A stretch of DNA of 64,000 bases from a virus: the IMG/VR virus record IMGVR_UViG_3300044846_003365, positions 1 to 64,000 of that record; one strand, 5' to 3'. Both the position numbers and the translations under genes were made by a program. Under the pieces are notes generated by a model. It saw nothing but the letters and a program-made list of their open reading frames with translations, was not told where the DNA came from and did not search any database. The number at the start of each line of letters is the position of its first letter. Position 1 is the stretch's first letter. Of this stretch, positions 38,167-60,303 are shown in pieces.

Positions 38167-38188
38167 AGGGAGGTCATTATTTCCACGC
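38167..38188 (+). repeat. 22-bp dispersed site, weak copy
   Basis: Ends in TTTCCACGC with the right overall length, but the left half is AGGGAG instead of AAGGGT. It points toward the plus-strand genes. Confidence 0.35.
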
Positions 38189-38440
38189 TGAGGCGACCTA
38201 AAACCCAGCTTTTCGGGCAAATGCTAGATAGTTATTTATAGTTTGTAATTGTTTGTAATCTAGAACCAGCTAACCACCTATGTCAAAGATAGGTAAAACT
38301 TCGTTGATATGATTCTAAACAATCACTTAGATAATTACCAAAGGGTAAGTTAGCCACACCAGCCCAACAGTTGGTTGCTTAGATAGAACTCCGCAGGGTG
38401 TTAGATTCAGATTCAGATTAGGGCTATCCGCACAAGTCCC

Positions 38441-38458
38441 GTTATCAAATCGTTATAA
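38441..38458 (+). repeat. GTTATC-N5-GTTATAAA dispersed site
   Basis: One of five copies of this direct-repeat site, 19 bp upstream of the plus-strand promoter of the 89-residue gene. Confidence 0.6.
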
Positions 38459-38476
38459 AGAACTATAACTTTAGAC

Positions 38477-38505
38477 TTGACAAGTTGCCCGTAAGCTTGT
38501 ATCCT
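38477..38505 (+). promoter_or_regulatory. sigma70-type promoter for the first plus-strand gene
   Basis: TTGACA (38477-38482) and TATCCT (38500-38505) are separated by 17 bp. The start codon follows 39 bp later. Confidence 0.75.
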
Positions 38506-38544
38506 TTTCTTATTAGCCTTACCCACCTATCGAAAGGGATTCAA

Positions 38545-38814
38545 ATGTCCACCACCGCAACCACTACCACCACCGCCCACGACACTACCTGTATGGCAAC
38601 TGCCCCTTGCGAGCCTTGCTCGGCAATCATTAGCCACGCACAGGAAGCACGCCACGCATACAACAAGGCTCTAGATATTCTTGAAGACCTTGGCTCTACC
38701 CCTTGGGTATATCAAGCTGGCGGTGTTGAGACCGCAGACTTTTGGCGAGTCTTCGAAGACTTGCGAAACTTGCGAGACGAAGCAGACCGCAGGATTCCTA
38801 GTGGAGATTACTAG
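38545..38814 (+). CDS. small hypothetical protein
   Basis: 89 residues from ATG 38545, which follows GAAAGGGATTCAA; a longer upstream frame has no site and would overlap the promoter. The N-terminus is Thr/Ala-rich with four cysteines between about residues 15 and 26 (CMATAPCEPC). The rest is helical (HARHAYNK-like region, then FEDLRNLRDEADRR). It is a monocistronic plus-strand gene with its own promoter and terminator, opposite in direction to its surroundings. The function is unknown. Its position beside the control region suggests an early role. Confidence 0.7.
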   Translation: MSTTATTTTTAHDTTCMATAPCEPCSAIISHAQEARHAYNKALDILEDLGSTPWVYQAGGVETADFWRVFEDLRNLRDEADRRIPSGDY

Positions 38815-38829
38815 GAACTAAAACAGAAG

Positions 38830-38858
38830 CCCCCTCGAAAGAGGGGGTTTTCTTTTTG
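38830..38858 (+). terminator. Rho-independent terminator of the 89-residue gene
   Basis: Seven-bp stem CCCCCTC/GAGGGGG with a GAAA loop followed by TTTTCTTTTT. Confidence 0.9.
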
Positions 38859-38885
38859 CCTAAGTTATTCCGCACCCAGGCCGGG

Positions 38886-38907
38886 GAGGGTAGTGGTATT
38901 TCCACGC
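38886..38907 (+). repeat. 22-bp dispersed site
   Basis: GAGGGT, seven bases, then ATTTCCACGC-type right half (TTTCCACGC), directed toward the phosphatase gene whose start lies 60 bp downstream. Confidence 0.65.
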
Positions 38908-38967
38908 AGAAGAACTTGACAATTGCTAACCCGTATGAGAACCTAGAAGCTTACGAAAGAGAGAACT

Positions 38968-39474
38968 GTGAACCAGCCTAACGACCCAAGACTAGCGTCT
39001 GTGAACCAGCCGTATCATAAACCCTTAGCTACTTGGTCAGAGGTCTTGCCTAATCTATGGCAGGGAGGCACAGAGGACGACGACATCTACCTTCAACACG
39101 ACCAGCCAACTATTACTAAAGATAACTTTGATTCGGTATACACCTTGTATGGTTGGGCGAACCCAGTTGGTTGGTTTGTGAAAGAAACTCGGCTAGGTTT
39201 CCACGACAGCGACAGCCTAACTGTCCACCCTAAACAACTCTACGACTTAGCCAGCCAAGCACACAGGGATTGGAAAGAAGACAAGCGTGTCTTGATTAGG
39301 TGTCAGGCAGGTCTGAATAGGTCAGCCTTGATAACAGCTTTAGTCCTAATCAAGGAAGGCTTTACCGCAAGCCAAGCTATAACTTTGCTTAGGGAAACTA
39401 GAAGCGAGTATGTCCTAATCAACCCTCACTTTGAAAAGTGGTTGCTAGAAACAGAACACTTTAGCGAACTCTAA
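38968..39474 (+). CDS. tyrosine/dual-specificity phosphatase-like protein
   Basis: 168 residues from a GTG start after GAAAGAGAGAA. The active-site P-loop is clear: LIRCQAGLNRSALI, with C112 and R118 in the C-x5-R-S signature. D80 or D82 in FHDSDSLTVHP is the likely general acid, and helices follow as in cysteine-based phosphatases. It would remove phosphate from protein Tyr/Ser/Thr or another phosphoester; the substrate is unknown. The tail of the gene overlaps the oppositely oriented terminase gene by 14 bp. A 22-bp dispersed site replaces an obvious promoter upstream. Confidence 0.8.
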   Translation: MNQPNDPRLASVNQPYHKPLATWSEVLPNLWQGGTEDDDIYLQHDQPTITKDNFDSVYTLYGWANPVGWFVKETRLGFHDSDSLTVHPKQLYDLASQAHRDWKEDKRVLIRCQAGLNRSALITALVLIKEGFTASQAITLLRETRSEYVLINPHFEKWLLETEHFSEL

Positions 39475-40858
39475 AGAACCCAGTTCCCCTAGTGTCTGGC
39501 AATCTCCTAGAAGCCAAAGACTTAGCCTTTATGCTACCGCCCACAAAACCAGCGGGGGGTTTGATTAGTAAGGCGGTAAGAGCGTGAACCAAAGCATCTA
39601 CTCTGTCAGGCGACTTACCCTCACCCGGAACCCAGCTAAACATCTGAGACTCTAGGTCAGACAAGTAGCCTATGTGGTGAACTCTACCTTGCTCATACGC
39701 AAGGGTAGTGGGCTCAGCCCTCAAAGCTTTACCATACTTAGAGTGAACTTCGAGAACCTTTATGTTTGGGTCAATGGCGTTGATAGCATTACGAACCAAA
39801 GCCCCACCTTGGTTTACTTCGGCAACAACAGGGCAACCCCACTTACGAGCCATAGCTACAACTTTGTTTGCCCACACATCAGGCGAACCTAAAACAGAAG
39901 CATCTTCTAAAACCCAAGCTTGACGCTTATACAAATCTCTATCCGCAGTAGAAGCACACACCACAATCCCACACTCATCTCTAGGATTCTCGGCTACTGA
40001 AGGGTCTACTCCAATTATTCTTAGTGGAGCTTTAGGAGGCATAGAGTGTTCCCTATGTTGCTCAATCAACTCCTCAGTCCACAAAGCCCCCTCAACATCA
40101 TCAAGCATCTCACCATAAAGTTCTTGTTGAGCTAAGCGTGTTCCTTCATAAACTCCAGTAATAGCATCTAGATAAGCAGAAGATAAGTTTCCAGAGTTGT
40201 CCATAGTTGAACCACGGGACACCCACACCTTGCCAGTTCGCTTAGCCTCATCTAGAAGCGAGTAAAGGATAGGCACACGCTTAGGAGTAGTAGTGGCTAG
40301 AATCTGGGGATTACGACCTAGACGAGTTGCCACACGAAGGTTGTCCCAAGAGGTCATACCAGCAGCATCTGGGTTCTGTCTCCAAGCTGCCAGCTCATCA
40401 GCCCAAGAGTAGTGGGCTTGAACACCACGAAGGGAGTCTGGCTCATCAGCAGTTCCAAGAACAGCGGTATTGCCATTAGGCCAGGTCAGCCTACGCTTGG
40501 AAGGCTCATACAAAGGTCTCTCACTTGGAGGCGACACAGCCAAGATACCACTATCACCTTCGACAATAACATCTCGCACATCTGCTGCAGTTCGAGCTAC
40601 GAGCAAGAACCGCAAGCGACCTTGGCTTGAATCCAATGCTTTAGTTCTAACCCACTCCGCAGCACTCCTAGTCTTACCAGCACCACGACCAGCCAAGAAC
40701 AACCCAACATTCCAAGAGTCATTAGCAGGCGGAATCTGTTCAGGTCTTCCCCAGAAGCTCCAGTCCCAAATCAAAGACTCAGGGTCCATACCAGCTAGGA
40801 CAGCTAAGCGTTCTTCATCTGGGAGTTCCGCAACTATCTGAGCCAGGCTCTTCGGCAT
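39461..40858 (-). CDS. terminase large subunit
   Basis: A 465-residue packaging motor and nuclease. Walker A is GRGAGKT (57-63), Walker B is SWADE (D154, E155), and a coupling-motif-like LATTTPK follows at about 187-193. The RNase H-like nuclease has acidic residues D285 (IIGVDPS), E347 (VVAEVN) and D421 (SPDRVDAL). The start is ATG 40858 after AAGGATTCAG. It is not adjacent to portal or to the small-terminase candidate at 62391-63302. It lies beside the plus-strand phosphatase gene in a tail-to-tail overlap. Confidence 0.93.
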   Translation of the reverse strand: MPKSLAQIVAELPDEERLAVLAGMDPESLIWDWSFWGRPEQIPPANDSWNVGLFLAGRGAGKTRSAAEWVRTKALDSSQGRLRFLLVARTAADVRDVIVEGDSGILAVSPPSERPLYEPSKRRLTWPNGNTAVLGTADEPDSLRGVQAHYSWADELAAWRQNPDAAGMTSWDNLRVATRLGRNPQILATTTPKRVPILYSLLDEAKRTGKVWVSRGSTMDNSGNLSSAYLDAITGVYEGTRLAQQELYGEMLDDVEGALWTEELIEQHREHSMPPKAPLRIIGVDPSVAENPRDECGIVVCASTADRDLYKRQAWVLEDASVLGSPDVWANKVVAMARKWGCPVVAEVNQGGALVRNAINAIDPNIKVLEVHSKYGKALRAEPTTLAYEQGRVHHIGYLSDLESQMFSWVPGEGKSPDRVDALVHALTALLIKPPAGFVGGSIKAKSLASRRLPDTRGTGFFRVR

Positions 40859-40878
40859 CTGAATCCTTACTAAGCGAA

Positions 40879-40905
40879 AAAGGGCGTGGAAAATACCACA
40901 CCCTT
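40879..40905. terminator. hairpin between the HTH gene and the terminase gene
   Basis: AGGGCGTGG and CCACACCCT arms pair with one G-T wobble around a five-base loop. The stem coincides with a copy of the 22-bp site, so the hairpin and the site overlap. Confidence 0.5.
40884..40905 (-). repeat. 22-bp dispersed site upstream of the terminase gene
   Basis: On the minus strand AAGGGT, seven bases, TTTCCACGC, ending 25 bp before the terminase start and pointing into it. Confidence 0.75.
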
Positions 40906-40921
40906 CATCATACCACCTAGC

Positions 40922-41473
40922 TTACGAAATAACTCTGTGGTCTTTACGAATTGGTTTGTAGACTTTGCTCTTGCCATTTTTAGAAGGCTTGTAGCCATAA
41001 CGAGCTAGTCTGAACTGTAAAGCTGAGCTTGTCACTCCAAGGCGCAACGCTAGTCTATAAACTGGCACTCCTTCAACTCTGTTTGCGTAGTCCAATAGCT
41101 TTGTGTATTCCTCTGCCTCTTTACGATAGGTCTGAACGTTCGAGCGAACCAGCCTTGCCTTCGGCTGTAGCTCTAGCAAGCGAGCCAATGTCTCGGCACT
41201 AGGCTCAACATATACAGGCTTTACCTTTTCAATGTGGCGTGGTGGGTCTGGGATAGGTAGTGAACTAATGTTCGCACCGCTAACAGGAAAGTCAACAATC
41301 TGCCTAGCTCTTTCCCTAGTCATACCGCAAGCATTAGAAATACTTGTCAATGTCCAGCCAGCGTTCCGCAAGGCGATTATGTAATCGTTCCTCGCAGGGG
41401 TTCCTTCAATCTTTTCAAAAGCTTTTACTACCTCTGGGGGTAGCTCAACCAGTTTCTTTCTTACATTTGTCAT
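40922..41473 (-). CDS. double helix-turn-helix DNA-binding protein (paralogue of the 37.7-kb protein)
   Basis: 183 residues. The first HTH is in ALRNAGWTLTSISNACGMTRERARQIV and the second in VYRLALRLGVTSSALQFRLAR. The linker holds SAETLARLLELQPKARLVRS, which parallels PAETEKRLAYLAPIARTYRS of the protein at 37206-37706. It lies directly upstream of the large terminase gene, where a small terminase subunit or operon regulator is expected. A DNA-recognition role in packaging or control is plausible but not shown. Confidence 0.65.
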   Translation of the reverse strand: MTNVRKKLVELPPEVVKAFEKIEGTPARNDYIIALRNAGWTLTSISNACGMTRERARQIVDFPVSGANISSLPIPDPPRHIEKVKPVYVEPSAETLARLLELQPKARLVRSNVQTYRKEAEEYTKLLDYANRVEGVPVYRLALRLGVTSSALQFRLARYGYKPSKNGKSKVYKPIRKDHRVIS

Positions 41474-41510
41474 TTAGTGTTTTCCTTTCATAAGACTATG
41501 TAATCCTCGT

Positions 41511-41528
41511 TTATAACGATTCGATAAC
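41511..41528 (-). repeat. GTTATC-N5-GTTATAAA dispersed site
   Basis: Minus-strand copy 38 bp upstream of the double-HTH gene at 40922-41473. Confidence 0.6.
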
Positions 41529-41587
41529 AATACTAACCTTTTTCTAATCAAAGCGGTATACTTGTTCGCTTTGAGCGTCAATAAAAA

Positions 41588-41612
41588 AATCCCCCACCTT
41601 TTGGCAGGGGAT
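41588..41612 (-). terminator. Rho-independent terminator of the peptidoglycan-binding gene
   Basis: Minus strand: stem from ATCCCCTGCC and GGTGGGGGAT around AAAA, followed by a T7 run. Confidence 0.85.
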
Positions 41613-41628
41613 TCTTTACTATAACTAT

Positions 41629-42144
41629 TTAGACAATAGGCTTTACATTAGGGTCGTTCTTGAAGATAGCCAAGAAAGTCTCGGCATCAAGTTTTCCAGA
41701 ATCCCCCACCTTATTATCTTTTTGGTAGCTAGCAATAGCAGATAGGGTATTCTCTCCATACCAACCATCTTTATCCTTACCAGCCTGCTCATAACCAAGC
41801 TCCACCAGTCGCCTTTGAAGGTGGTGAATAGTTAGAGACTTTCTTGCTTTCACATTTTTGTAGACTACTGAAGCTAGAGAAACATCATCTACGGAGTTGT
41901 TAGACACAACAGCAGGTCCAGCAGGCTCAGGGGCGGAGTTTAGAATATCGTCCATAGTGACAGACTTAGGCTCACGATACTTGCTCTTAGCTACTGGCTT
42001 AGGCTGTTCCTCAACTACAGGCTCAGGCTCAACGGCAACAGGCTCAGGGGCTACCTCTAGGGTAGGCTCTTCAACAACGGCTACAGGCTCAGTAGGGGTT
42101 AGCTCTGGCTCTACAGCCTCAAATTCAATTTCTGATTCACTCAT
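41629..42144 (-). CDS. peptidoglycan-binding-domain protein with acidic Pro/Glu-rich N-terminus
   Basis: 171 residues. Residues 1-~55 are a low-complexity Pro/Glu/Val repeat. Residues ~95-165 form a PG_binding_1-type domain: LTIHHLQRRLVELGYE, then DGWYGENTLSAIASYQKDN and LDAETFLAIF. No signal peptide or catalytic domain is visible. It could be a virion protein that touches the cell wall or a lysis accessory. The gene is bounded by a strong terminator and begins directly at a 17-bp palindrome, without a ribosome binding site. Confidence 0.75.
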   Translation of the reverse strand: MSESEIEFEAVEPELTPTEPVAVVEEPTLEVAPEPVAVEPEPVVEEQPKPVAKSKYREPKSVTMDDILNSAPEPAGPAVVSNNSVDDVSLASVVYKNVKARKSLTIHHLQRRLVELGYEQAGKDKDGWYGENTLSAIASYQKDNKVGDSGKLDAETFLAIFKNDPNVKPIV

Positions 42145-42161
42145 AGTGTAAATTTTACACT
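42145..42161. promoter_or_regulatory. perfect 17-bp palindrome at the start of the peptidoglycan-binding gene
   Basis: AGTGTAAA-T-TTTACACT touches the start codon. On the minus strand it contains TAAAAT ending seven bases before ATG, the spacing of a leaderless promoter. It could therefore be an operator covering the -10 box. Confidence 0.6.
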
Positions 42162-42164
42162 AAT

Positions 42165-42335
42165 TTAGACACGCTGAGCTAAGCCAGCGAAGGCTACGGC
42201 ACTAAGCCCAAGGGCTAATGTCAAAGTTGACAGGTCAGGAGCAAACAAAGCAACTCCTATTGAGAGAACAGCAAATACAACGGCAAGAACAGAAGTCCAA
42301 ACCACATCTTTCATAAGCAACAACCAATTACGCAT
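42165..42335 (-). CDS. small membrane protein (56 residues)
   Basis: ATG 42335 directly follows the stop codon of the upstream gene (TAGATG). Two hydrophobic segments (TSVLAVVFAVLSIGVALFA and LTLALGLSAVAFAGLA) suggest two membrane spans. With its 53-residue neighbour it forms a pair of tiny membrane proteins after the deacetylase-like gene. I cannot assign a function; spanin- or holin-like accessory roles are possible. Confidence 0.65.
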   Translation of the reverse strand: MRNWLLLMKDVVWTSVLAVVFAVLSIGVALFAPDLSTLTLALGLSAVAFAGLAQRV

Positions 42336-42497
42336 CTATTTTTCCTCTTCATCTTTCTTCGGCATTACGACTCCCAACAAAGGGCCGCCATCTTTCCACG
42401 CGTCTTCTTTACTTTTGTCCTTCCGCATCTCAATCCAGCTCAAAGCAACCAGAACTAAAATGGAAAGAACAAGAGTAAAGACTAGGAACTCTAGCAA
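42336..42497 (-). CDS. small membrane-anchored protein (53 residues)
   Basis: TTG start six bases after AGGAG. One N-terminal hydrophobic helix (EFLVFTLVLSILVLVALSW) is followed by a charged cytoplasmic-type tail rich in Lys, Asp and Glu. It directly abuts the next small membrane protein. No function is recognised. A copy of the 22-bp pattern falls inside this coding sequence. Confidence 0.65.
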   Translation of the reverse strand: MLEFLVFTLVLSILVLVALSWIEMRKDKSKEDAWKDGGPLLGVVMPKKDEEEK

Positions 42498-42505
42498 TCT
42501 ATCTC

Positions 42506-43486
42506 CTAAGCTAAAACTGTTTTACCAGTCTTTCGGTATATGTTAGCTACAACTCTAGCCCAAACTTCGGGCGTTGAGTCATAAGGCTTGTAGCCACCAG
42601 CCCCACCAATCAGAACCCTGCCTTTGGCAAAGCGATTAGCTAGGTCGGCAACAACACTAGACGCACCTTCATAACCTTCGTAGGTATACTTCATACCCCA
42701 AATGTCAGACTCGTGAGCGTCAGCACCCGTAGCTAGAAGAATAACATCAGGCTCGTATTCCTCGACCTTCTGAGCAATCTCGTTGATAGCCCAAGAGAAC
42801 TCAACATCTCCAGAACCTCTCGGCAAAACATAGTTATACCAATGCTTTTCTGGAAGCGAATACTCGTAAGGCTCGTCTTCAAAATACTTAGAGTCATACC
42901 AAGTGTCAGAGTGAGTAGGATACATCCTGTGTCCGTGAATACTGAAAGTAGGTATGTCCGTATCTTCTAGTAGATTCTGAACTCCATCTCCAGCGTTCAC
43001 ATCCCAGTCAATGTAGACTGCCTTCAAACCATTACGCTCGAACTCCTTAGCAGCCCAAGCGAAATCGTTGAAGACGCAAAAGCCTTCACTCCATCCGTAT
43101 TGAGCGTGGTGCTTCGCACCTTGTGGATTGAACCCAACTCTGGCTTCCCCTGAGATAATCTTCTCGACTAGGCGAGCAGTCCCAGAGAACATTTGTAGAG
43201 CGGTATGCCCCATCAGCAGATTCTCTTTATGCCACTCGTATGAAACGCCTTTGTCAATTACTTCCGCAACAAACTTAGGGTCGTGGATGCTTTCCAAACT
43301 TGCTCTGTCGTAGTCAGCAACAGTAGGCTCGATAACCTCAATAGCGTCAGAACCAAGAGAGTTAGATAGCTTTTCTAGGGCGAGCTTAGCCCGTATTGGC
43401 TTAGTAATGTGCGTGCCATCACCAGAACCAAGTTGCCAGTTTAGGTAGTCGTCGCTATACGCAACAAATAACTTTTCGTTGTTCAT
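42506..43486 (-). CDS. HDAC-family (arginase/deacetylase fold) protein with altered zinc ligand
   Basis: 326 residues from ATG 43486, eight bases after GAGGAG. The family hallmarks are present: tandem histidines in QGAKHHAQYG (H126, H127), GFCVFNDFAWAA, IDWDVNAGDGVQ (D160, D162), GADAHESD (D256) and IGGAGGY (Y299). In classical enzymes the zinc is held by Asp-x-His plus Asp. Here the His position is Asn164. The family includes histone, acetylpolyamine and acetoin-utilisation deacetylases; the substrate is unknown. It could reverse acetylation of a host protein or polyamine, or the Asn could mean an altered or lost activity. It has its own strong promoter. Confidence 0.85.
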   Translation of the reverse strand: MNNEKLFVAYSDDYLNWQLGSGDGTHITKPIRAKLALEKLSNSLGSDAIEVIEPTVADYDRASLESIHDPKFVAEVIDKGVSYEWHKENLLMGHTALQMFSGTARLVEKIISGEARVGFNPQGAKHHAQYGWSEGFCVFNDFAWAAKEFERNGLKAVYIDWDVNAGDGVQNLLEDTDIPTFSIHGHRMYPTHSDTWYDSKYFEDEPYEYSLPEKHWYNYVLPRGSGDVEFSWAINEIAQKVEEYEPDVILLATGADAHESDIWGMKYTYEGYEGASSVVADLANRFAKGRVLIGGAGGYKPYDSTPEVWARVVANIYRKTGKTVLA

Positions 43487-43517
43487 TTCTAACTCCTCTC
43501 TTTTCGTCATTATTTCT

Positions 43518-43546
43518 ATTCTACAACGCAAAGAAAGTTTTGTCAA
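43518..43546 (-). promoter_or_regulatory. sigma70-type promoter of the deacetylase-like gene
   Basis: Minus strand TTGACA (43541-43546), 17 bp, TAGAAT (43518-43523). Confidence 0.8.
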
Positions 43547-43582
43547 GTTGCGTGATGAAACAGCTACCCTTTAGCAGGCAGT

Positions 43583-43927
43583 CTAACCTTGCTCAGCTTT
43601 TCTTTCTTTTCTAATTAGGAAGATTGACGCAAGAGAGCCAACAACATAACCAATCATCAAAGACGGAATCCAACTAAACTCAGGCTTCCACCCAACTACA
43701 AAGCCCATTACAACTATGAAAGTCAAAGCCCCCGCAGTTGCTTCAAGGAAAATCTCTAGTCCCAGAAATAAAGGCTTAGGGCTTTTCTTAGAGTGCTTAG
43801 GGCTTATGTAAGTAGACCTAGTGCTTTTCGGAGTGTAGTGATGCTTCCTAAGATGCTTGATAGACCAGATAGCCACAATAGAACCAACGGCAACTAGGAG
43901 AGAGCTAAGAATAATAGCAAACTCCAT
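43583..43927 (-). CDS. small membrane protein
   Basis: 114 residues with an N-terminal hydrophobic helix (IILSSLLVAVGSIVAIWSI), a basic Ser/Lys-rich loop, then two more hydrophobic segments (ATAGALTFIVVMGFVVGW and LMIGYVVGSLASIFLI) and a basic end. Probably three spans. Its start overlaps the stop of the preceding 70-residue membrane protein gene. Function unknown. Confidence 0.65.
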   Translation of the reverse strand: MEFAIILSSLLVAVGSIVAIWSIKHLRKHHYTPKSTRSTYISPKHSKKSPKPLFLGLEIFLEATAGALTFIVVMGFVVGWKPEFSWIPSLMIGYVVGSLASIFLIRKERKAEQG

Positions 43928-44139
43928 TACGCAACCACCTTGTTTAGCAGTCTGCTAATTACTGGATACAGCACTAGGAACAGCACCCAAGCCAAACCAA
44001 TAGACCAAAGGTTATCGGCAAAGTTCCCACCATAACCAGCACCCAAAGCAATAAGCACAGCGAAAATAGCCCAGTAGATACCAAAAATCAACGGCAAGGT
44101 AGCCAAGCCAACCAAACCTCTAAGAATTGCTTTTACCAT
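43927..44139 (-). CDS. small membrane protein
   Basis: 70 residues, nearly all hydrophobic, with two or three spans (LATLPLIFGIYWAIFAVLIA and LAWVLFLVLYPVISRLL). It is first in a two-gene unit with its own promoter. No homologue is recognised; it may alter the host membrane. Confidence 0.65.
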   Translation of the reverse strand: MVKAILRGLVGLATLPLIFGIYWAIFAVLIALGAGYGGNFADNLWSIGLAWVLFLVLYPVISRLLNKVVA

Positions 44140-44171
44140 CTTTTTTCCTTTCGTCGTTTTGTTGCTCTTCT

Positions 44172-44200
44172 ATTGTATCTAATTAGACACAGCTTGTCAA
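44172..44200 (-). promoter_or_regulatory. sigma70-type promoter of the two membrane-protein genes
   Basis: Minus strand TTGACA (44195-44200), 17 bp, TACAAT (44172-44177). Confidence 0.8.
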
Positions 44201-44208
44201 GTATTTAT

Positions 44209-44370
44209 TTAGACTACTTTCCAGCCCAGTATTGAGCCAGCAAAGAATCTGTCCTGCCAAAACGCTAAATTAGCGGGAAAGTAAGGGGCAGGGTAGGTTA
44301 TCTGTCTAGTAGTTCCGTCAAGGTAAATTACCTCAATCGTTCTAGTCTGGTTTTCGGTTTCGTTTATCAT
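44209..44370 (-). CDS. small hypothetical protein (53 residues)
   Basis: ATG 44370 follows AAAGGACTAAA. Two strands (TRTIEVIYLDG, then TTRQITYPAPY) are followed by an aromatic-rich helix (LAFWQDRFFAGSILGW). The stop lies just before the -35 box of the next unit. It is soluble and of unknown function. Confidence 0.65.
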   Translation of the reverse strand: MINETENQTRTIEVIYLDGTTRQITYPAPYFPANLAFWQDRFFAGSILGWKVV

Positions 44371-44391
44371 TTTAGTCCTTTCTCTGTATTT

Positions 44392-44420
44392 ATAGTATCA
44401 GCTAAAGGCAAACTTGTCAA
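44392..44420 (-). promoter_or_regulatory. sigma70-type promoter of the 53-residue gene
   Basis: Minus strand TTGACA (44415-44420), 17 bp, TACTAT (44392-44397). Confidence 0.75.
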
Positions 44421-44428
44421 GCACTTTA

Positions 44429-44879: not shown

Positions 44880-44890
44880 AGTTATCTTTC

Positions 44891-45386: not shown

Positions 45387-45408
45387 GCGTGGAAGAACTC
45401 TTACCCTT
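45387..45408 (-). repeat. 22-bp dispersed site
   Basis: Minus strand AAGGGT, seven bases, CTTCCACGC (one change from TTTCCACGC), 40 bp upstream of the 84-residue gene and pointing to it. CCACGCGTGG at its right end is a perfect palindrome. Confidence 0.7.
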
Positions 45409-46713: not shown

Positions 46714-46790
46714 TTGCGCCTACCTTTCCTTTGAGAGTAATTTCTCGGCGTTTATTGGTTTGGTTCTCCCAATCTTGTATTCAGTTATAA

Positions 46791-46812
46791 ACGACTTCAT
46801 CTCTGAAGTCGT
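46791..46812 (-). promoter_or_regulatory. perfect 5'-leader hairpin of the NlpC/P60 mRNA
   Basis: Perfect nine-bp arms ACGACTTCA/TGAAGTCGT with a four-base loop sit right at the expected transcription start. It probably shields the 5' end of the mRNA or controls translation. Confidence 0.7.
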
Positions 46813-46945: not shown

Positions 46946-46967
46946 GCGTGGAAAAAGACAGACCCTT
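46946..46967 (-). repeat. 22-bp dispersed site
   Basis: Minus strand AAGGGT, seven bases, TTTCCACGC, between the terminator of the 64-residue gene and the NlpC/P60 promoter. Confidence 0.75.
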
Positions 46968-47679: not shown

Positions 47680-47708
47680 ATTCTACACCCGTGCCGTTGA
47701 ATTGTCAA
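47680..47708 (-). promoter_or_regulatory. sigma70-type promoter of the 58-residue gene
   Basis: Minus strand TTGACA (47703-47708), 17 bp, TAGAAT (47680-47685), embedded in the 3' end of the ClgR-like gene. Confidence 0.75.
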
Positions 47709-47970
47709 GTTCAACTTCCCAAGAGTAAGGAACCCGAAGCTCTTCTCTTTCCATAAGCAAGCCCGCCTCTTGAACAATTACATAGCTCGGCACATCAAGA
47801 GCGTAAGCTATGTTCTCAACTATGTCTGAGGAAGCTTCTTTCTTGCCTCGCTCAACTTCGCTGAGATACCCAAGAGAAATGTTTGACTTAGTAGACAACT
47901 GCCTAAGAGTCATACCAATCCTGTTCCTACGCAAGTGAACTATGTGTCCAATAGATTCGTGTAATCTCAC
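47683..47970 (-). CDS. ClgR-like XRE-family transcriptional regulator
   Basis: 95 residues with a GTG start overlapping the upstream stop (GTGA). It has one XRE helix-turn-helix: RRNRIGMTLRQLSTKSNISL, then GYLSEVERGKKEASSDIV, then ALDVPSYVIVQ. The LGYLSEVERGKKEASS stretch closely recalls ClgR, the actinobacterial activator of clp protease genes. A phage copy could redirect host Clp expression or act as a phage repressor. It is the last gene of a three-gene unit with two acidic proteins. It is one of the best clues to an actinobacterial host. Confidence 0.8.
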   Translation of the reverse strand: MRLHESIGHIVHLRRNRIGMTLRQLSTKSNISLGYLSEVERGKKEASSDIVENIAYALDVPSYVIVQEAGLLMEREELRVPYSWEVELDNSTARV

Positions 47971-51306: not shown

Positions 51307-51335
51307 AGTTTACACGCAAAAACGAGATGCGTCAA
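51307..51335 (-). promoter_or_regulatory. sigma70-type promoter
   Basis: Minus strand TTGACG (51330-51335), 17 bp, TAAACT (51307-51312); a 22-bp dispersed site ends 10 bp upstream. Confidence 0.65.
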
Positions 51336-51345: not shown

Positions 51346-51367
51346 GCGTGGAAAAAACCCTACCCTT
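51346..51367 (-). repeat. 22-bp dispersed site
   Basis: Minus strand AAGGGT, seven bases, TTTCCACGC, between the terminator at 51406 and the promoter of the 79-residue gene. Confidence 0.75.
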
Positions 51368-52328: not shown

Positions 52329-52350
52329 AAGGGTCTAAGTTTTTCCACGC
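52329..52350 (+). repeat. 22-bp dispersed site
   Basis: Plus strand AAGGGT, seven bases, TTTCCACGC. It lies directly after the terminator of the 216-residue gene and points toward it. Confidence 0.75.
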
Positions 52351-53812: not shown

Positions 53813-53834
53813 AAGGGTAGCTCTTTTTTCACGC
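53813..53834 (+). repeat. 22-bp dispersed site
   Basis: Plus strand AAGGGT, seven bases, then TTTTCACGC (one change in the right half). It points away from the gene on its left. Confidence 0.7.
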
Positions 53835-54013: not shown

Positions 54014-54190
54014 TTACTTTTCAGCTTCAATAGCTAAAGCAGTTTCCCACTTTTTGCTATCGTAAGCTTCGTCAAACCTTTTGTAATCTTCGCTTGACCA
54101 ATCTTTCGTGTCAATCAGAAGAATCTTCCCGTGTCCATAGCTTTCGTCGTCAGCTATCCAAAGCGTGTTAGGTGAAAGTTCTTTTATCAA
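54014..54190 (-). CDS. small acidic protein (58 residues), TTG start
   Basis: The TTG start overlaps the upstream TGA stop (TTGA) and follows GGAAGAGGTG. The product (LWIADDESYGHGKILLIDTK, then DWSSEDYKRFDEAYDSKKWE) is strand-turn-strand-helix. It is coupled to the upstream gene. Function unknown. Confidence 0.65.
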   Translation of the reverse strand: MIKELSPNTLWIADDESYGHGKILLIDTKDWSSEDYKRFDEAYDSKKWETALAIEAEK

Positions 54191-54597
54191 ATCTTCACCT
54201 CTTCCTTACGCTTTCTACTAGCCCATCCGTCTCCAGCGAACTCCATCTCGTAGTCCCAGACCTTACCAAGAGCAACAGCGACATCCGTTGAGATGTCAGT
54301 CCAGCTCTCGCTCTCACGCCATAAGTTGCTAAGGTCAGGGTAAGTTGGTAAGTCCTCATCCGTTGAGTAGTCCCCAAGCACCAAGACTCTATCGCCTGTC
54401 CAGCGACCAGACAAGCCGTCAAACTTGTTCCAGTCTCCACCACCCCTTGCCGGTGAGGTCATAAGTAAAAGATATAACGCGTCAGACATTGAACCCTCGC
54501 AACCCGTTTGCTCGTATTGCTTAGCACCCAAGCCGAGCGGATAAGAACTAACCTGCTCTTGCTTATCAAGATTTACTAATTTGTGATACTGTCCCAT
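54187..54597 (-). CDS. conserved phage hypothetical protein
   Basis: 136 residues from ATG 54597 after GAAAGGAAACAG. It begins MGQYHKLVNLDKQE, continues with a Leu-rich stretch (SMSDALYLLLMTSPARGGGD) and then GLSGRWTGDRVLVLGDYST. This order is typical of a widespread phage and bacterial protein family without known function. It is coupled to the 58-residue gene. Confidence 0.7.
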   Translation of the reverse strand: MGQYHKLVNLDKQEQVSSYPLGLGAKQYEQTGCEGSMSDALYLLLMTSPARGGGDWNKFDGLSGRWTGDRVLVLGDYSTDEDLPTYPDLSNLWRESESWTDISTDVAVALGKVWDYEMEFAGDGWASRKRKEEVKI

Positions 54598-54620
54598 CTG
54601 TTTCCTTTCGTCGTTGTTTT

Positions 54621-54649
54621 ATTGTATACCTTATCCGTCTCTTTGTCAA
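54621..54649 (-). promoter_or_regulatory. sigma70-type promoter
   Basis: Minus strand TTGACA (54644-54649), 17 bp, TACAAT (54621-54626); serves the 136-residue gene. Confidence 0.8.
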
Positions 54650-54657
54650 GTTTATTG

Positions 54658-54691
54658 GCAGGGGGGAGAGAGACAGGTTCTCCCCCCGCCA
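54658..54691. terminator. GC-rich hairpin after the VWA gene
   Basis: Long G/C-rich arms (GGC, GGGGGGAGA against TCTCCCCCC, GCC) face each other with a short loop. No clear T-run follows on the minus strand. Confidence 0.6.
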
Positions 54692-54696
54692 AGCCT

Positions 54697-56544
54697 TTAG
54701 CGGTTCTGCTTTGACAGGGCATCCGCAGCTTTCTGACCAATCAGTTCAGCTACCTTGCCCAAGCCGTCGTCAGTTGTGGCAGAAACAACTTCTGCACCGT
54801 GTTGCGCTAGCCCCTTTACCGTGTAGTCGTCAGGGGAGAAGGTAATCCACAACACTCCAACGCCACTATCCTTACAAGCCTTTAGCCACTCCGTAGCCTT
54901 CTTGGCTTGCTCGTAGCGGTAGTGTGCATCAGACACAACAACCAACAAGCGAGCGCCGTCAGAGTGCAACAAGTTCAGCGAGCCATCCAAAGCTTGAAAG
55001 CCTTTGTCAAACTCTTCTGTCGAGTCTGGCGCTGTGTAAACATTGACGGCATTTAGGTGTTGCCCCGGCTTTAGAGTCGCAAAGACATCTTGACCAAAGT
55101 AGACCATAGCTGTCGTTGCTTGAACCCTGCGACCTGCTTCTGACAAAACCCAAGCTGTGGTAGCTAAGGGATTCATAGCAGCACCCATAGAACCAGAGAT
55201 ATCAACCATCACGCCAACCTTTAGTTCAGGGTCGTCAGTATGCTTTCTAACAGTTCTTTCCCAAGCTTCGACTCTGTGGTTCAAGCCCATTGACTTGTAT
55301 GCAGCGTTCTGAACCATAGCACGAGAGCGCAACCTGCCCTGCGGAACAAAGCTTCTAATCTCTGTCTGCGAGCGCTCACGATACTTAGCTTTCTCAAGTA
55401 GCTTCGCAACCTTGACAGCTGCAGCTCTCTCTTCTCCAGTTGGAGTTCTAGTCTCCCTTAGAGTCGAGTTAGTCCCATTGTTTTCTCCGGGACCAGAGCT
55501 GTTAGAGAAAACTTCTGACGCAACATCCTTATGCTTTTTCTGTTGCTTAGAAACTTCGGCACGAGCCTTAGCTTCTTCAATAGCTTCTTCAACATCCATA
55601 GCATCAAAAGCTTCTGACAGGTTAGAGATTTTTACAATCTCTCTAGCTTCTTCAACTGCTTCTTTCAAAGCTTCGGCAAACTGCTTTGCAGCAGAGCTAC
55701 CAGTTCCATTACCAGAACCATTAGAAGAAGAACTTGATTCAGAACCTTCGCCATCCTCTTGCTCTGAACCTTCTTCGCCCTGCTGTTTCTCTCCAGCATC
55801 CTTACTAGCCTTGTCCACAATCTCAACCCAGCGTTTCGCTAGTGGATAAAGTTGTGTGGCATCAGCGTGGCTATCGTGAGCTTGGAACTCAAGCCACACT
55901 TCACGCAACTGGCTAAGAGTGTCCTCTCCCATTACGGAAACAATCAACTCACGAATAGGCTCAACTTCACTCTCGTCTAGAACTCCAGCATCAACACGAG
56001 CGAGAGTTAGACCAGCAGTAAACGCAGCGCCACGAACAGACGACAAGTTTTCTGCAACTGAATCCATATCACCAATCGCAAGTTCCATAGCAGAAGAGCG
56101 AAGAAAAAGTTTATTCTCTGGCATAGACTTTATTCCAAAGGATTCAATTCTTCCTTCTTCCAAAGTCTGCAAAGCTTTATACTCAACGCCACTAAGTTCG
56201 TCAAAAGCTTTCTCCAAAGAGAAACGAGAATAGCGAGCGTGCAAAGCTTCGTGGTAAATTGCACCACAAGCAACTGGATGCTCTAGCTGTCCCAATCTAG
56301 TATTCAAGTTAGAAACTAATTCCGGGCCAATGTTAGGAAAAGCTTTGGCTGTGTTGATTTCGATTTCGGCGCTCGCAGGGTTGAACAAAGCCGGGTGGTC
56401 GTGCGAAATGCTGTCGCCCATAGTTACAACTAGGTCGCTACGAAAAGACCAATCGTTTACAAGACGACCAACGACTGCACCAATGCGCAACCAACTAGGG
56501 TCGTTCTCTTTACGAGTCTCCAAGTCCAAACTAAAGTGATTCAT
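54697..56544 (-). CDS. VWA-domain protein, partner of the MoxR-type ATPase, with HExxH-like motif
   Basis: 615 residues from ATG 56544, six bases after CAGGAG. The N-terminal half carries YHEALHARYSRF (H98, E99, H102), a metallopeptidase-like HExxH. The middle is a long Glu/Ser-rich linker (about 270-370). The C-terminus is a von Willebrand A domain with MIDAS VMVDISGSMG (D448, S450, S452) and VVVSDAH near 535-541. CobT-like and other VWA partners of MoxR ATPases share this architecture. The pair should form an ATP-driven chaperone that inserts metals or remodels a target complex. The target is not visible. Confidence 0.8.
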   Translation of the reverse strand: MNHFSLDLETRKENDPSWLRIGAVVGRLVNDWSFRSDLVVTMGDSISHDHPALFNPASAEIEINTAKAFPNIGPELVSNLNTRLGQLEHPVACGAIYHEALHARYSRFSLEKAFDELSGVEYKALQTLEEGRIESFGIKSMPENKLFLRSSAMELAIGDMDSVAENLSSVRGAAFTAGLTLARVDAGVLDESEVEPIRELIVSVMGEDTLSQLREVWLEFQAHDSHADATQLYPLAKRWVEIVDKASKDAGEKQQGEEGSEQEDGEGSESSSSSNGSGNGTGSSAAKQFAEALKEAVEEAREIVKISNLSEAFDAMDVEEAIEEAKARAEVSKQQKKHKDVASEVFSNSSGPGENNGTNSTLRETRTPTGEERAAAVKVAKLLEKAKYRERSQTEIRSFVPQGRLRSRAMVQNAAYKSMGLNHRVEAWERTVRKHTDDPELKVGVMVDISGSMGAAMNPLATTAWVLSEAGRRVQATTAMVYFGQDVFATLKPGQHLNAVNVYTAPDSTEEFDKGFQALDGSLNLLHSDGARLLVVVSDAHYRYEQAKKATEWLKACKDSGVGVLWITFSPDDYTVKGLAQHGAEVVSATTDDGLGKVAELIGQKAADALSKQNR

Positions 56545-56575
56545 TTTTTTCTCCTGTCTCTGATTCACTAAGTAA

Positions 56576-56604
56576 ATTGTAAAGCTTTTAGCTTCATTTG
56601 TCAA
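56576..56604 (-). promoter_or_regulatory. sigma70-type promoter of the VWA gene
   Basis: Minus strand TTGACA (56599-56604), 17 bp, TACAAT (56576-56581). It lets the VWA gene be expressed separately from the ATPase. Confidence 0.8.
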
Positions 56605-56682
56605 GTTCTAGGGGGTGTGTGGTGAGTGCCTAAACAACTATGAAAAAGACACCCACCCCACTTCTGCCTAATCTGGAAGGAT

Positions 56683-57714
56683 TTAGATTTTGGCAGGTCT
56701 AGCTTCTTCACCATAAACTCTGGTAAAGACATCTGACACAACAGTTCTGTCCATCTCTGGCGCAGAAGCAATTAGATTCTCAATCGCCCACTTCGTTCCA
56801 AAAGACTCGGAAAGAGTTTTGAAAGTTAGTAGCTCTCGCATCTGCGGCGCCCAAGAGATTTCGTTAGAAGCTTGCTTCTTAGCGAGATTCTGGGCAACAG
56901 TAACTGCTGGAGTCGGAACGCCAAGCTTACGAGCAAGAACCCAATCAGTAGTCATTTCTGCTTGGATACCAAATCGAGAAAGCAAAGCTTCTGACAAGCG
57001 AACACCCGGAGCGTTAGGGTTAGTTGCAGCAACTACATAAAAGCCTTCTTTAGCTTTTACAGTTCCACGCTCTGGATTGGCAGTAACGGCAATCTCTCGA
57101 CGACCATCCATCAGACCATACACAACTGACAAGACCTTAGGGTCAATAAGACCAATCTCGTCAATCAGTAAAGCCTTACCCTGCTCTGCAGCTTTGACCA
57201 GCGGCCCATCAATCCACTCGAATCCACCACTTGGAGTCTGAACATAGCCACCAACAAAGTCGGCAACTTCTGTATCGCCAGTTCCAAGGACAGTAAACAA
57301 GTCTGAACCAAATGCAGCTTCGACCATAGCAGTCTTACCAGTTCCCGGTGCGCCATACAGTAGAACATACTGGTTAGCTACACGAGCTTTCTTTAGGACT
57401 TCAACATCACTATGCTCTCCCCAACTGCGAGCAAAATACTTCTCGCCATTAGGTCGCTCATAAGAAGATTCGCCTTCTAGAGTTTCTGCTTCCACAATCT
57501 TTGCCTTCTTTGGAGTGGAGTTAGCATCCCTGTTTCTAAGAACAGCTTTGCCAAACTTTTCGTCGTAGTAAGACACTAGCTTAGCATCACCAACTAGAGA
57601 GTAGTTTTGAGTAACAGTATCTCTAATTAGCTTCGCCAAGTCCAAACCTGGATTAGCAGCGTCAAGTCCATCAAGAACTTCTGTGTTTCTATTTACAATC
57701 GCAATTTCAGTCAT
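56683..57714 (-). CDS. MoxR/CobS-like AAA+ ATPase
   Basis: 343 residues from ATG 57714 after AAGGAAAGATAAA. Walker A is GAPGTGKT (121-128), Walker B is LLIDE (D185, E186), and a sensor-like VVAATNP follows. The absence of a C-terminal protease or helicase domain, and the neighbouring VWA gene, point to the MoxR/CobS branch. CobS-like genes occur in several phage groups, where their role is unresolved. It is translated with the 167-residue gene upstream. Confidence 0.85.
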   Translation of the reverse strand: MTEIAIVNRNTEVLDGLDAANPGLDLAKLIRDTVTQNYSLVGDAKLVSYYDEKFGKAVLRNRDANSTPKKAKIVEAETLEGESSYERPNGEKYFARSWGEHSDVEVLKKARVANQYVLLYGAPGTGKTAMVEAAFGSDLFTVLGTGDTEVADFVGGYVQTPSGGFEWIDGPLVKAAEQGKALLIDEIGLIDPKVLSVVYGLMDGRREIAVTANPERGTVKAKEGFYVVAATNPNAPGVRLSEALLSRFGIQAEMTTDWVLARKLGVPTPAVTVAQNLAKKQASNEISWAPQMRELLTFKTLSESFGTKWAIENLIASAPEMDRTVVSDVFTRVYGEEARPAKI

Positions 57715-57733
57715 TTTATCTTTCCTTCCTTGA

Positions 57734-58237
57734 CTAAGCGCTTTCAGTTTCGAATAGGGACTCTCCCCATCCAAGACCAGTTCTTGCTCTAAGAACTCGT
57801 CGAACTAGAGAGTTTGGAGTCTTGCCACTTGACAGCTCTGATATCTCTAGGTGAGAAACTTCTACCACTATTGGCTTCTTGAACAAAGTCCAACCCAATC
57901 TTGTGAAATCTCGTATTGTGTGGATGGAGTTGTAGGACAAGTTCGCAACGAAGAACTCTTTTACAGAAGTCTCTGACTTCTGAATAAGCACTCCATCAGA
58001 ATCTCTTTCAATAGTTGATTCTGGATTTGCTACATGCTCTCCCAAAGCCTTGAAGATACTCCAAGTCTTTCTAGGGTGAGAAGTAGAAATCACTCTTCGC
58101 ATTACACGAGAAGCGACCAGCTTGTTATCTATCCCAATTACTGCTGGGGTAAAGATAACTTGCGAAGTATAAGAACCCTTGCGGAACTCTAGATACAGAG
58201 CTTTACCAGCAGAGTCCTTTGGACTTTTTTCACTCAT
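57734..58237 (-). CDS. hypothetical protein upstream of the AAA+ gene
   Basis: 167 residues. Strands (YLEFRKGSYTSQVIFTPAVI) and a helical middle, then SLEIS-like strands and a C-terminal basic segment (SLVRRVLRARTGLG). It opens the unit with the AAA+ ATPase and may assist the pair. No domain recognised. Confidence 0.65.
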   Translation of the reverse strand: MSEKSPKDSAGKALYLEFRKGSYTSQVIFTPAVIGIDNKLVASRVMRRVISTSHPRKTWSIFKALGEHVANPESTIERDSDGVLIQKSETSVKEFFVANLSYNSIHTIRDFTRLGWTLFKKPIVVEVSHLEISELSSGKTPNSLVRRVLRARTGLGWGESLFETESA

Positions 58238-58266
58238 AGTTGTTTTCCTTCTTTCTGTAGATTTAG

Positions 58267-58295
58267 ATTATTGCAGACTTTTTCTGCTTTGTCAA
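58267..58295 (-). promoter_or_regulatory. sigma70-type promoter of the AAA+ unit
   Basis: Minus strand TTGACA (58290-58295), 17 bp, AATAAT (58267-58272). Confidence 0.7.
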
Positions 58296-58313
58296 GTCTT
58301 TCGACTAGACTTT

Positions 58314-58607
58314 TTACTCGTCGTCGTCTTCGACTTCAACTTCGACTTTTTGTTCCTCAATCGAAAAGCCATTGTATTTTTCGATAATTCGGAAAAGTTC
58401 TTCCCAAGCATATTTGTTTAGCTCGTCTTCGTCATAAATGTAGACATCATCATCTATCCAAGTCTTGTCTGAGAGTTGGACATTTCCTACTGGTTCATAA
58501 CTTATGGTGGTCTCCCAATTAGTCTCGTCATAAAAACCAGACACTTCTAATCTGAAACCATCAAGCTCGATGCTTGCTACTGCTTTGGTCTTTGTAGTTG
58601 TTTTCAC
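58314..58607 (-). CDS. hypothetical acidic protein
   Basis: 97 residues from GTG 58607 after AAAGGAAAAC. Beta-rich (ASIELDGFRLEVSGFYDE, then TTISYEPVGNVQLSD) with a Glu/Asp-rich C-terminal run. It is monocistronic with its own promoter. Function unknown. Confidence 0.65.
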   Translation of the reverse strand: MKTTTKTKAVASIELDGFRLEVSGFYDETNWETTISYEPVGNVQLSDKTWIDDDVYIYDEDELNKYAWEELFRIIEKYNGFSIEEQKVEVEVEDDDE

Positions 58608-58629
58608 GTTTTCCTTTCGTCGTTGTAAT

Positions 58630-58659
58630 ACTATAACATAAGCTACTGACATTTGTCAA
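58630..58659 (-). promoter_or_regulatory. sigma70-type promoter with TGACA/TGTCA dyad
   Basis: Minus strand TTGACA (58654-58659), 18 bp, TATAGT (58630-58635). TGACA-AA-TGTCA overlaps the -35 box. Confidence 0.75.
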
Positions 58660-58719
58660 ATCGCTTTTGTTGTGCCTGCTGACACAACTTTTACATTGTG
58701 CCAGCAGCCACTGACATTC

Positions 58720-59238
58720 CTAGAAGTGGAAGTCCACTGGGACTAGGAACCAATCAAGCTCACCTTCGGCAATCTTTTTGCGAAAGTGTTCTGTGTTAGT
58801 GCTGTCGTGTTCTAGGTCGAAGAAGTAGGAATTGAAGTCCCAAGTGCCTTGCAACATATCAATCATCTTCTTCAAGGGATACAGCTCAAAGTCATACTGC
58901 ATTTCCCCGGTATAGCTGTCGAGCTTTGCTTCTAGGTCAACACCTTTTTCTGCCAAGCTCTTGCGATAACCATTGAACTCATCAACACGATTTGAAATTG
59001 CTTTTGCAATCAGCTCGTTGAACTTAGCTGGGTCATCATTCCAACTAACGATGTGGTTTGGAGAACTTGCGTAAGGGTCGCCTTCAACAAATCTTCCACC
59101 ACCAACTACGAACCAGTCGTACCAAGTGCCACTTGAGCTTTCAAAGTCTCCCAACCAACGCTGAAAAGTATCTTCGACGTTCCTCAGTGCTTCATCGCTG
59201 TTGTCAGCTTTTACTGCTACATACTGCAATACATGCAT
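58720..59238 (-). CDS. hypothetical protein
   Basis: 172 residues from ATG 59238 after AGGAAAAACAAAT. An aromatic segment (SSGTWYDWFVVGGGRF) recalls a motif seen in several small phage proteins. The rest is mixed helical, with a Glu/Asp-rich middle. Function unknown. Confidence 0.65.
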   Translation of the reverse strand: MHVLQYVAVKADNSDEALRNVEDTFQRWLGDFESSSGTWYDWFVVGGGRFVEGDPYASSPNHIVSWNDDPAKFNELIAKAISNRVDEFNGYRKSLAEKGVDLEAKLDSYTGEMQYDFELYPLKKMIDMLQGTWDFNSYFFDLEHDSTNTEHFRKKIAEGELDWFLVPVDFHF

Positions 59239-59264
59239 ATTTGTTTTTCCTTCCTGTTGCTTTT

Positions 59265-59293
59265 ATTGTATCAATTTATTTTTCAAAAGTCAA
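59265..59293 (-). promoter_or_regulatory. sigma70-type promoter
   Basis: Minus strand TTGACT (59288-59293), 17 bp, TACAAT (59265-59270); serves the 172-residue gene. Confidence 0.75.
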
Positions 59294-59312
59294 ATCTATT
59301 TTGGTGAGAGTT

Positions 59313-59328
59313 GGGGGATTGCTCCCCC
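59313..59328. terminator. hairpin after the 148-residue gene
   Basis: GGGGGA and TCCCCC arms with a short loop. Only weak T-richness follows on the minus strand. Confidence 0.55.
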
Positions 59329-59342
59329 ACTCCCGGCGCTCG

Positions 59343-59789
59343 CTAATCTATGCGAGCGTCCACCCAACATTCGAAACCCTTCGAACGCAAGTGTTGCGCC
59401 ATTCGATTTGCGATGAAGCGCTTACGCTCGAAGCTCTGGCCAGCGTCAGCAAAACCATATCGCTCGAAAGTGTAAAGGCCAACGCCCTTAGCTCTGCCAA
59501 ACGACCACCACTTCGAACCTAGCTTTTCTCCCATTGGGCGCTCTTGCACTAGCCACTGGGCGAACCCACTGCGACCACTCTCAAGAACTACAGTGGCAAA
59601 ACCACAAACGCCACCTTCGACAAACCAAGTTTTCTGGTTTGGGTCAACATCATTGCCAAGTGGTGTGCTTGGCGAACCAACGATGATTGGAGTTGGAGCT
59701 GGGCACTCAGCGAGTGCTTTGTGCGAAACAGCCTTCAGCTCGTTGAACAGAGCTTCGTACTGCGCACTTTTACTGCTAATTGTTTTCAT
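59343..59789 (-). CDS. hypothetical protein
   Basis: 148 residues from ATG 59789 after AGGAAGGAACCC. It has a helical N-terminus (SAQYEALFNELKAVSHKALA), then GFATVVLESGRSGFAQWLV, a segment WWSFGRAKGVGLYTFERYG and a basic helix (ERKRFIANRMAQHLRSKG). Function unknown. Confidence 0.65.
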   Translation of the reverse strand: MKTISSKSAQYEALFNELKAVSHKALAECPAPTPIIVGSPSTPLGNDVDPNQKTWFVEGGVCGFATVVLESGRSGFAQWLVQERPMGEKLGSKWWSFGRAKGVGLYTFERYGFADAGQSFERKRFIANRMAQHLRSKGFECWVDARID

Positions 59790-59812
59790 GGGTTCCTTCC
59801 TCATAGAATTAT

Positions 59813-59841
59813 AGTTTACACTATTGTCTGACAAAAGTCAA
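59813..59841 (-). promoter_or_regulatory. sigma70-type promoter
   Basis: Minus strand TTGACT (59836-59841), 17 bp, TAAACT (59813-59818); serves the 148-residue gene. Confidence 0.65.
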
Positions 59842-59849
59842 ATCGTGTC

Positions 59850-60158
59850 TTACTCGTTTTCATCGTCGTAGTCAGCAAACTGCTCAACAACTTGGATGTA
59901 TCCATCATTTGGGTTTTCTGGAGTTGTGTGGACAGCGTTGATAAATCTCAAGCCACAAGATTCCTCATACCACTCGACAACTTTGTTTGCCATTTCCTCA
60001 GGGTCCATTTCGGCGGAACTGATTAGTGGGTCGTAACCCCAAGAATTCATCAAGGTCATTTGTTCGTCATCCATAAGAATGTAAATCTTGTGGCAAGTGT
60101 CGAACGCAATTCCTTTGGCTTCTTTGGTGTATTCCAAAATTTCAAAAGCATCAACCAT
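59850..60158 (-). CDS. hypothetical acidic protein
   Basis: 102 residues from ATG 60158 after GAAAGGAAACAAAAA. Helices and strands alternate (VDAFEILEYTKEAKGIAFDT, then CHKIYILMDDEQMTL) and the end is Asp/Glu-rich. A TATAAT box lies at 60184-60189 without a good -35 box. Function unknown. Confidence 0.65.
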   Translation of the reverse strand: MVDAFEILEYTKEAKGIAFDTCHKIYILMDDEQMTLMNSWGYDPLISSAEMDPEEMANKVVEWYEESCGLRFINAVHTTPENPNDGYIQVVEQFADYDDENE

Positions 60159-60228
60159 TTTTTGTTTCCTTTCTGTTGCTTTTATTATACAACCCCCCAC
60201 TGACAAAAGTAATCCCTTTTTGGGTTAT

Positions 60229-60246
60229 GTTATCAATTTGTTATAA
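60229..60246 (+). repeat. GTTATC-N5-GTTATAAA dispersed site
   Basis: Plus-strand copy six bases before a 22-bp dispersed site, the closest pairing of the two motifs. Confidence 0.6.
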
Positions 60247-60252
60247 ATGCGA

Positions 60253-60274
60253 AAGGGTGCCAGTTTTTTCACGC
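60253..60274 (+). repeat. 22-bp dispersed site (left of a convergent pair)
   Basis: Plus strand AAGGGT, seven bases, TTTTCACGC (one change in the right half). It faces a second copy on the other strand. Confidence 0.75.
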
Positions 60275-60281
60275 AGGCTCA

Positions 60282-60303
60282 GCGTGGAGAATGTTTGACC
60301 CTT
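60282..60303 (-). repeat. 22-bp dispersed site (right of a convergent pair)
   Basis: Minus strand AAGGGT, seven bases, TCTCCACGC. The pair is separated by seven bases and its inner halves (CACGC/GCGTG) form an inverted repeat. Confidence 0.75.

Follow-up and report, generated by a model that had tools for sequence, protein, structure and literature searches.

Dispersed asymmetric sites of lineage-specific sequence, probably regulatory, lie between terminators and promoters in a group of large actinobacterial phages

Cluster A phages such as L5 and TipsytheTRex carry stoperators, many dispersed asymmetric intergenic sites of 13 bp whose sequence varies among relatives, and those of the L5 type follow the direction of transcription and for the most part have no association with promoters (PMC6550527, PMC9283540). 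Microbacterium phages of cluster EC contain 12 copies of an 18-bp asymmetric intergenic motif located 22–30 bp upstream of start codons, and the start-associated sequences of clusters K and EF, also dispersed and conserved upstream of genes, are located at the ribosome binding site (PMC7302621). Because the cluster EC motif has already been described (PMC7302621), the general kind of site reported here, a dispersed asymmetric motif in small actinophage gaps, is known; the cluster EC sequence, TAGaCTaTaGGTgTaAgC, is a different one, the sites here lie upstream of the promoter, unlike those of clusters K and EF, and we found no description of the present motifs in the open-licence literature. 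In their logic, the L5-type stoperators come closest among described systems. Class I and class II activator sites (of the CRP type) and the T4 MotA boxes are fixed in helical phase upstream of the -35, or replace the -35, and the present sites resemble them in this; here, however, the sequence varies by phage lineage and the activator is putative.

The window, the whole stretch of DNA that we analysed, comprises bases 1–64000 of a 79.7 kb virus record (G000). An unbiased gapped-word search of this genome ranks first an asymmetric pattern with a constant length of 22 bp, RAGGGT-N7-TTTCCACGC, which probably serves the phage as a regulatory site. Its copies, with neighbouring features, are as follows.

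38167..38188, plus strand: weak partial match, right half only
38886..38907, plus strand: dispersed site GAGGGTAGTGGTATTTCCACGC, followed 8 bp downstream by a -35 TTGACA (38916–38921)
38968–39474, plus strand: gene downstream of the 38886 site
40884..40905, minus strand: exact site, within the 63 bp that separate the double-HTH and terminase large subunit genes
42380..42401, plus strand: one-mismatch match, a doubtful member, inside a small ORF (42336–42497, minus strand)
43550..43571, minus strand: weak site with three mismatches, separated by 3 bp from the strong predicted promoter that follows it (-35 TTGACA, 43541–43546; -10 TAGAAT, 43518–43523)
45387..45408, minus strand: site with one mismatch, preceded by a terminator at a distance of 12 bp
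46946..46967, minus strand: exact site, upstream of the NlpC/P60 gene (46078–46713)
51346..51367, minus strand: exact site, with a terminator 28 bp before it and a -35 TTGACG (51330–51335) 10 bp after it
52329..52350, plus strand: exact site, running against the direction of the genes, 10 bp beyond a terminator
53813..53834, plus strand: site with one mismatch, likewise opposed, lying upstream of a -35 TTGACA at a distance of 68 bp
60253..60274, plus strand: site with one mismatch that opens an inward-facing pair
60282..60303, minus strand: site with one mismatch, second of the pair, overlapping the stop codon of gene 60303–60551

An earlier note on this DNA had listed nine copies, all of 22 bp; a pattern scan returns every one at the same coordinates, on the same strand and with that fixed length, and the sites at 60253 and 60282 do face inward with 7 bp between them. 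The further weak copy it had proposed at 38167 stands for the right half, whereas the AAGGGT half is absent and the match is at chance level. The 79.7 kb record as a whole contains 5 matches with no mismatch, 10 with up to one, 11 with up to two and 17 with up to three, where an order-3 Markov null gives 0, 0.007, 0.19 and 3.1; tested with dinucleotide shuffles, the pattern has 15 matches at up to three mismatches against 2.6 expected, and a control pattern read backwards has 0 matches. All ten copies with at most one mismatch lie within 38.9–60.3 kb, and a record-wide scan found no such copy in the late genes or in the DNA past 60.3 kb. Gaps make up 17% of the 38.0–61.3 kb region and hold nine of the ten (P about 1e-6), the gene limits behind this gap/coding split being predictions, chosen by hand from ORFs. 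The enrichment in gaps, and over shuffled sequence, that the earlier note had proposed as a check is thus evident, and its picture of dispersed, asymmetric sites in both orientations between transcription units is borne out: six of the nine intergenic copies are co-directional with transcription and three are opposed. The match at 42380 is probably coding; its ORF encodes the peptide AWKDGGPLLGV, kept as AWKNSGPLLGV in the relative G001. The weak site at 43550 matches in position an exact site, 55078, of G001.

Relatives were located via the terminase large subunit (39461..40858, minus strand) among IMG/VR contigs and cultured or assembled phages. Many exact copies of the window class were found outside G000 in one contig, G001 (102 kb, terminase 77% identical), which has 14 near-perfect sites with an orientation of about 8 to 5. 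The remaining relatives do not have this sequence; in each, the top-scoring word is a dispersed asymmetric one of its own, with 7–22 copies placed in a similar way.

G002: ..TTTTTC-N4-TTTTCCGTGT
G003 and L180: CTCAAAAAA-NN-TATACTTT, 22 copies each
G006 and G007: NGGGT-N7-TTTTCCATGC
G008: GGGGT-N6-TTTTTCACAC
L170: GTATTTATTTTTTC
L171: GTATTCGTTTTTTC
L187 and L212: TAGTTATTTTTTCTG
L190: GTATCCACTTTTTGA
L179: TATGTATTTTTTCC
L172: GCATTTTTCATTTTT
Microbacterium phages Cece, A3Wally, Zooman and Big4: TTTAGTG-N6-ACTCTTGCGT, with a variant in Pumpernickel

Site length across the classes is ~16–23 bp, orientation is nearly one-directional in certain relatives, and in Cece and Pumpernickel the sites are mostly intergenic by the records' own annotation. 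From architecture and placement we infer that all of the classes belong to one homologous system.

Neither such sites nor the double-HTH gene was found in the metagenome-assembled phage DSL-LC01 (PMC10611076; L157–L159), which has a repeated same-strand promoter, CTAAAG-NN-GTTATAAT or ATTCTAAAG-NN-GTTATAAT, in 27 copies between 23590 and 43303 of the record, mostly flanked by GATTC/GAATC and upstream of many early genes. L203 and L205 carry the double-HTH protein, and the sole repeated word found in them is a promoter word, TGATATAATAG. L205, L203, L201, L188 and other relatives have a repeated -10 word, CCTGATATAATAGTAC, ahead of many genes, which is an extended -10 with no evident -35.

Between G000 and G002, terminase identity is 93%, and that of several early proteins is 74–84%. 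The earlier note had expected close relatives with the same gaps to keep the sites, and this is so only in part: G002 lacks the window sequence, yet has another class in the same gaps. Three corresponding gaps contain a site in both phages, each of its own class.

First gap: upstream of the NlpC/P60 gene (window site 46946)
Second gap: between the orthologues of 54014 and 53492 (window site 53813)
Third gap: at the end of the 60303 gene

The presence of own-class sites in corresponding gaps indicates a coordinated change of the dispersed set rather than its loss. It is possible, though we would stop short of calling it probable, that these phages have a phage-wide regulon whose 7–22 sites are replaced together, with gaps and genes kept and one internally uniform class exchanged for another as the specificity of an undescribed phage regulator diverges at the pace of immunity repressors, with no sign of lysogeny. 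In these large phages, whose hosts are actinobacteria of water and soil, a site with a lineage-specific sequence but a kept placement has the look of a control element in a gene switch that spans the phage. Whole-set replacement between close relatives makes the evolution of dispersed regulatory specificity testable where a lysogenic immunity function is not evident.

Where both elements are recognisable, as consensus predictions, the sites in most cases stand after a terminator and before a sigma70-type promoter. Five relatives keep the -35 at a nearly constant distance from the end of the site, at 25–28 in 8/8 scored sites of L212, 31–35 in 6/6 of L172, 30–32 in 5/7 of L179, 26–28 in 5/7 of L187, and 29–31 or 40–41 (about one helical turn more) in 9/12 of L170 (P 0 to 0.008, from simple jitter controls run after the pattern was seen); the test failed in L171 (P 0.73), L180 (P 0.20) and L190 (P 0.08). 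For the window class (G000, G001 and G008 pooled), 8 of 22 sites are 3–10 bp from the -35 (P = 0.002), with the remaining distances including 16, 37–43, 56–68, 80 and above. For 6 of 28 sites, no promoter can be recognised in the nearest 115 bp. The DNA from site to -35 is not conserved in sequence, and simple duplication therefore does not account for the spacing. Where two sites face inward, the DNA between them measures 7 bp (window), 9 bp or 19–21 bp (G006, G007), values about a turn apart. Together, the spacing constraints and the phasing of the pairs tie the sites to transcription initiation. Since the gaps between terminator and promoter fall outside the inferred transcripts, the sites probably act as double-stranded DNA, which argues against a role at the RNA level; an RNA signal was also rejected on the lack of a supported Rfam match.

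On balance, we lean towards the view that these are not stoperators but sites upstream of the promoters of an early/middle regulon of the phage, where an activator probably binds. Each site-bearing phage of the terminase lineage would use one asymmetric class, repeated upstream of many early and middle units, in the gap from the preceding terminator to the next sigma70-type promoter. A sequence-specific, probably phage-encoded protein would bind the double-stranded site and set the activity of the downstream promoter, most likely activating it from a position near -55 to -80. What favours activation is the location of the sites, ahead of the -35, together with the absence of a good -35 from some promoters; the phased -35 distance expected of an upstream activator regulon is present in L170, L172, L179, L187 and L212 and partly in the window class. 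Many window-class promoters have good -35 boxes, so an activator would not be needed there, and this counts against the reading. If sustained, the order of terminator, site and promoter would be a rule for gene control in an actinobacterial phage group in which we found more than ten site classes, and the rule could be tested at once in Microbacterium phages of this kind that are already in culture.

The sites could instead be operators or silencers, at which a phage repressor blocks the promoter or forms a loop there, and so shuts down or times early genes, perhaps with exclusion of relatives as a result. Class differences among relatives do recall immunity specificities (PMC6550527), and the gaps in the inward-facing pairs fit contacts on one helical face. 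The terminase promoter of contigs related to the TTTTCCATGC class bears on both activation and repression: in ten distinct terminase upstream sequences a site-like element replaces the -35 beside TATAAT/TACAAT, a position over the -35 region that would suit a repressor, but a repressor does not require site-bearing promoters to lack a -35. Nearly every site is upstream of the -35, not over the -35/-10, and a PF00589 search for tyrosine integrases gave 0 matches in six records (G000, which may be incomplete, G001, G002, G003, G006 and G007), with a small resolvase in G006 and G007. We regard repression as unlikely in comparison with upstream activation.

A protein bound in the manner of a stoperator or insulator, keeping transcripts that run through the terminator from entering the following unit, is improbable, even though sites often occur 0–30 bp after terminators and the L5 repressor uses dispersed asymmetric sites (PMC9283540). 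The likeness to stoperators raised in the earlier note is real as regards dispersal and variation among relatives; membership of the L5 system finds no support in consensus, repressor fold, orientation or placement, the sites being upstream of promoters. The window class is mixed in orientation (six co-directional against three opposed, unlike the cluster A rule), and several relatives keep a fixed promoter distance, unlike stoperators. Neither a repressor homologue nor a tyrosine integrase was detected here. The L5 stoperator has the 13-bp consensus GGTGGMTGTCAAG, which is not enriched, with 5 matches at two mismatches against 2.2 expected and none better.

Two encoded proteins were considered as candidates for binding the sites.

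40922..41473, minus strand: 183-aa double-HTH protein, with an N-terminal HTH like sigma region 4.2 (GMTRERARQI) and a C-terminal HTH YRLALRLGVTSSALQFRLARYGY
47683..47970, minus strand: 95-aa XRE (HTH_3) protein, a weakened candidate, which we take to resemble actinobacterial ClgR

The gene for the 183-aa protein adjoins the terminase gene, and the protein has two predicted HTH domains (mean pLDDT 89, in a model whose alignment rows were the window and the relatives' loci) and a weak sequence match to sigma factors. It has no PDB fold match at E<=0.001, and 7R6R, the two-domain monomeric repressor of the L5 gp71 type, is absent among the 50 matches listed. The protein is present in the site-bearing phages examined, and among Microbacterium phages it is found in seven records, all large and of the A3Wally/Cece type (gp45 in Cece, gp49 in Pumpernickel). 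Its two domains would suit an asymmetric bipartite site, and its absence from DSL-LC01, which has no such sites, also made it attractive. As the sole reader of the sites it was rejected, as its recognition helices do not track class: Cece/A3Wally and L170 have both recognition helices in common and differ in their sites, and G000 and G001 have the site in common and differ in the C-terminal recognition helix. The ClgR-like protein occurs in most site-bearing records and went undetected in Cece, Pumpernickel and the L206 record; its recognition helix is constant across classes, and with its absence from some site-bearing phages it too was rejected. The terminase small subunit was set aside as a binder, being a separate gene in the Cece annotation (gp1), homologous to window 62391–63302. 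A blast screen for a protein family tracking site class gave no DNA-binding candidate. As recognition helices do not track the sites and this screen was empty, the reader may be encoded by phage or host. The window also encodes a 169-aa conserved protein (37206–37715), which looks like a paralogue of the double-HTH protein and whose homologues in Cece and Pumpernickel are annotated as HTH; DSL-LC01 has, of the two, the 169-aa type only.

That the sites bind a host protein, with site class mirroring the host rather than a phage regulator, is also improbable. One class or a close variant is common to five Microbacterium phages, the L187/L212 class recurs on L214, a contig binned as Aquiluna, and no phage DNA-binding protein was found with class-tracking recognition residues. 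The classes are nevertheless numerous, and G000 and G002 differ despite their terminase identity, hosts being established for a minority. Hosts in the Microbacteriaceae are likely for part of the group, given L214 and the cultured relatives on Microbacterium.

Replication, packaging or partition sites would also be dispersed in both orientations, but we find this reading hard to credit, as the sites are in the early region only, mostly one per inter-unit gap, with a constrained promoter distance in relatives and classes that change between close relatives. Promoters of a phage RNA polymerase, an alternative in the earlier note, are made less likely by sites in both orientations at varying gene distance with ordinary sigma70-type promoters beside many of them; a search for a single-subunit phage RNA polymerase (PF00940) gave 0 matches, as did its control.

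Several other elements were seen in these genomes. A second motif, GTTATC-N5-GTTATAA (an 11-bp direct repeat), has five copies near promoters in the window, at 38441 (plus), 41513 (minus), 51864 (minus), 52254 (minus) and 60229 (plus), one of them just upstream of the double-HTH gene, and GTTATC-N5-GTTAT has 12 copies in the relative L171. The leader of the NlpC/P60 gene (window 46715–46810, GAATACAAGATTGGGAGAACCAA...) is conserved in G000, G002 and G001 and has no Rfam match. A Mom-like DNA modification protein (PF25680, E 1.7e-46) is encoded at 64047–64685 of the record (L009 4047–4685, minus strand), which suggests that the phage DNA is modified. Window 54697–57774 encodes an AAA+ ATPase (MoxR/AAA_5) adjoining a weak VWA/CoxE-like protein, and these are kept in many relatives.
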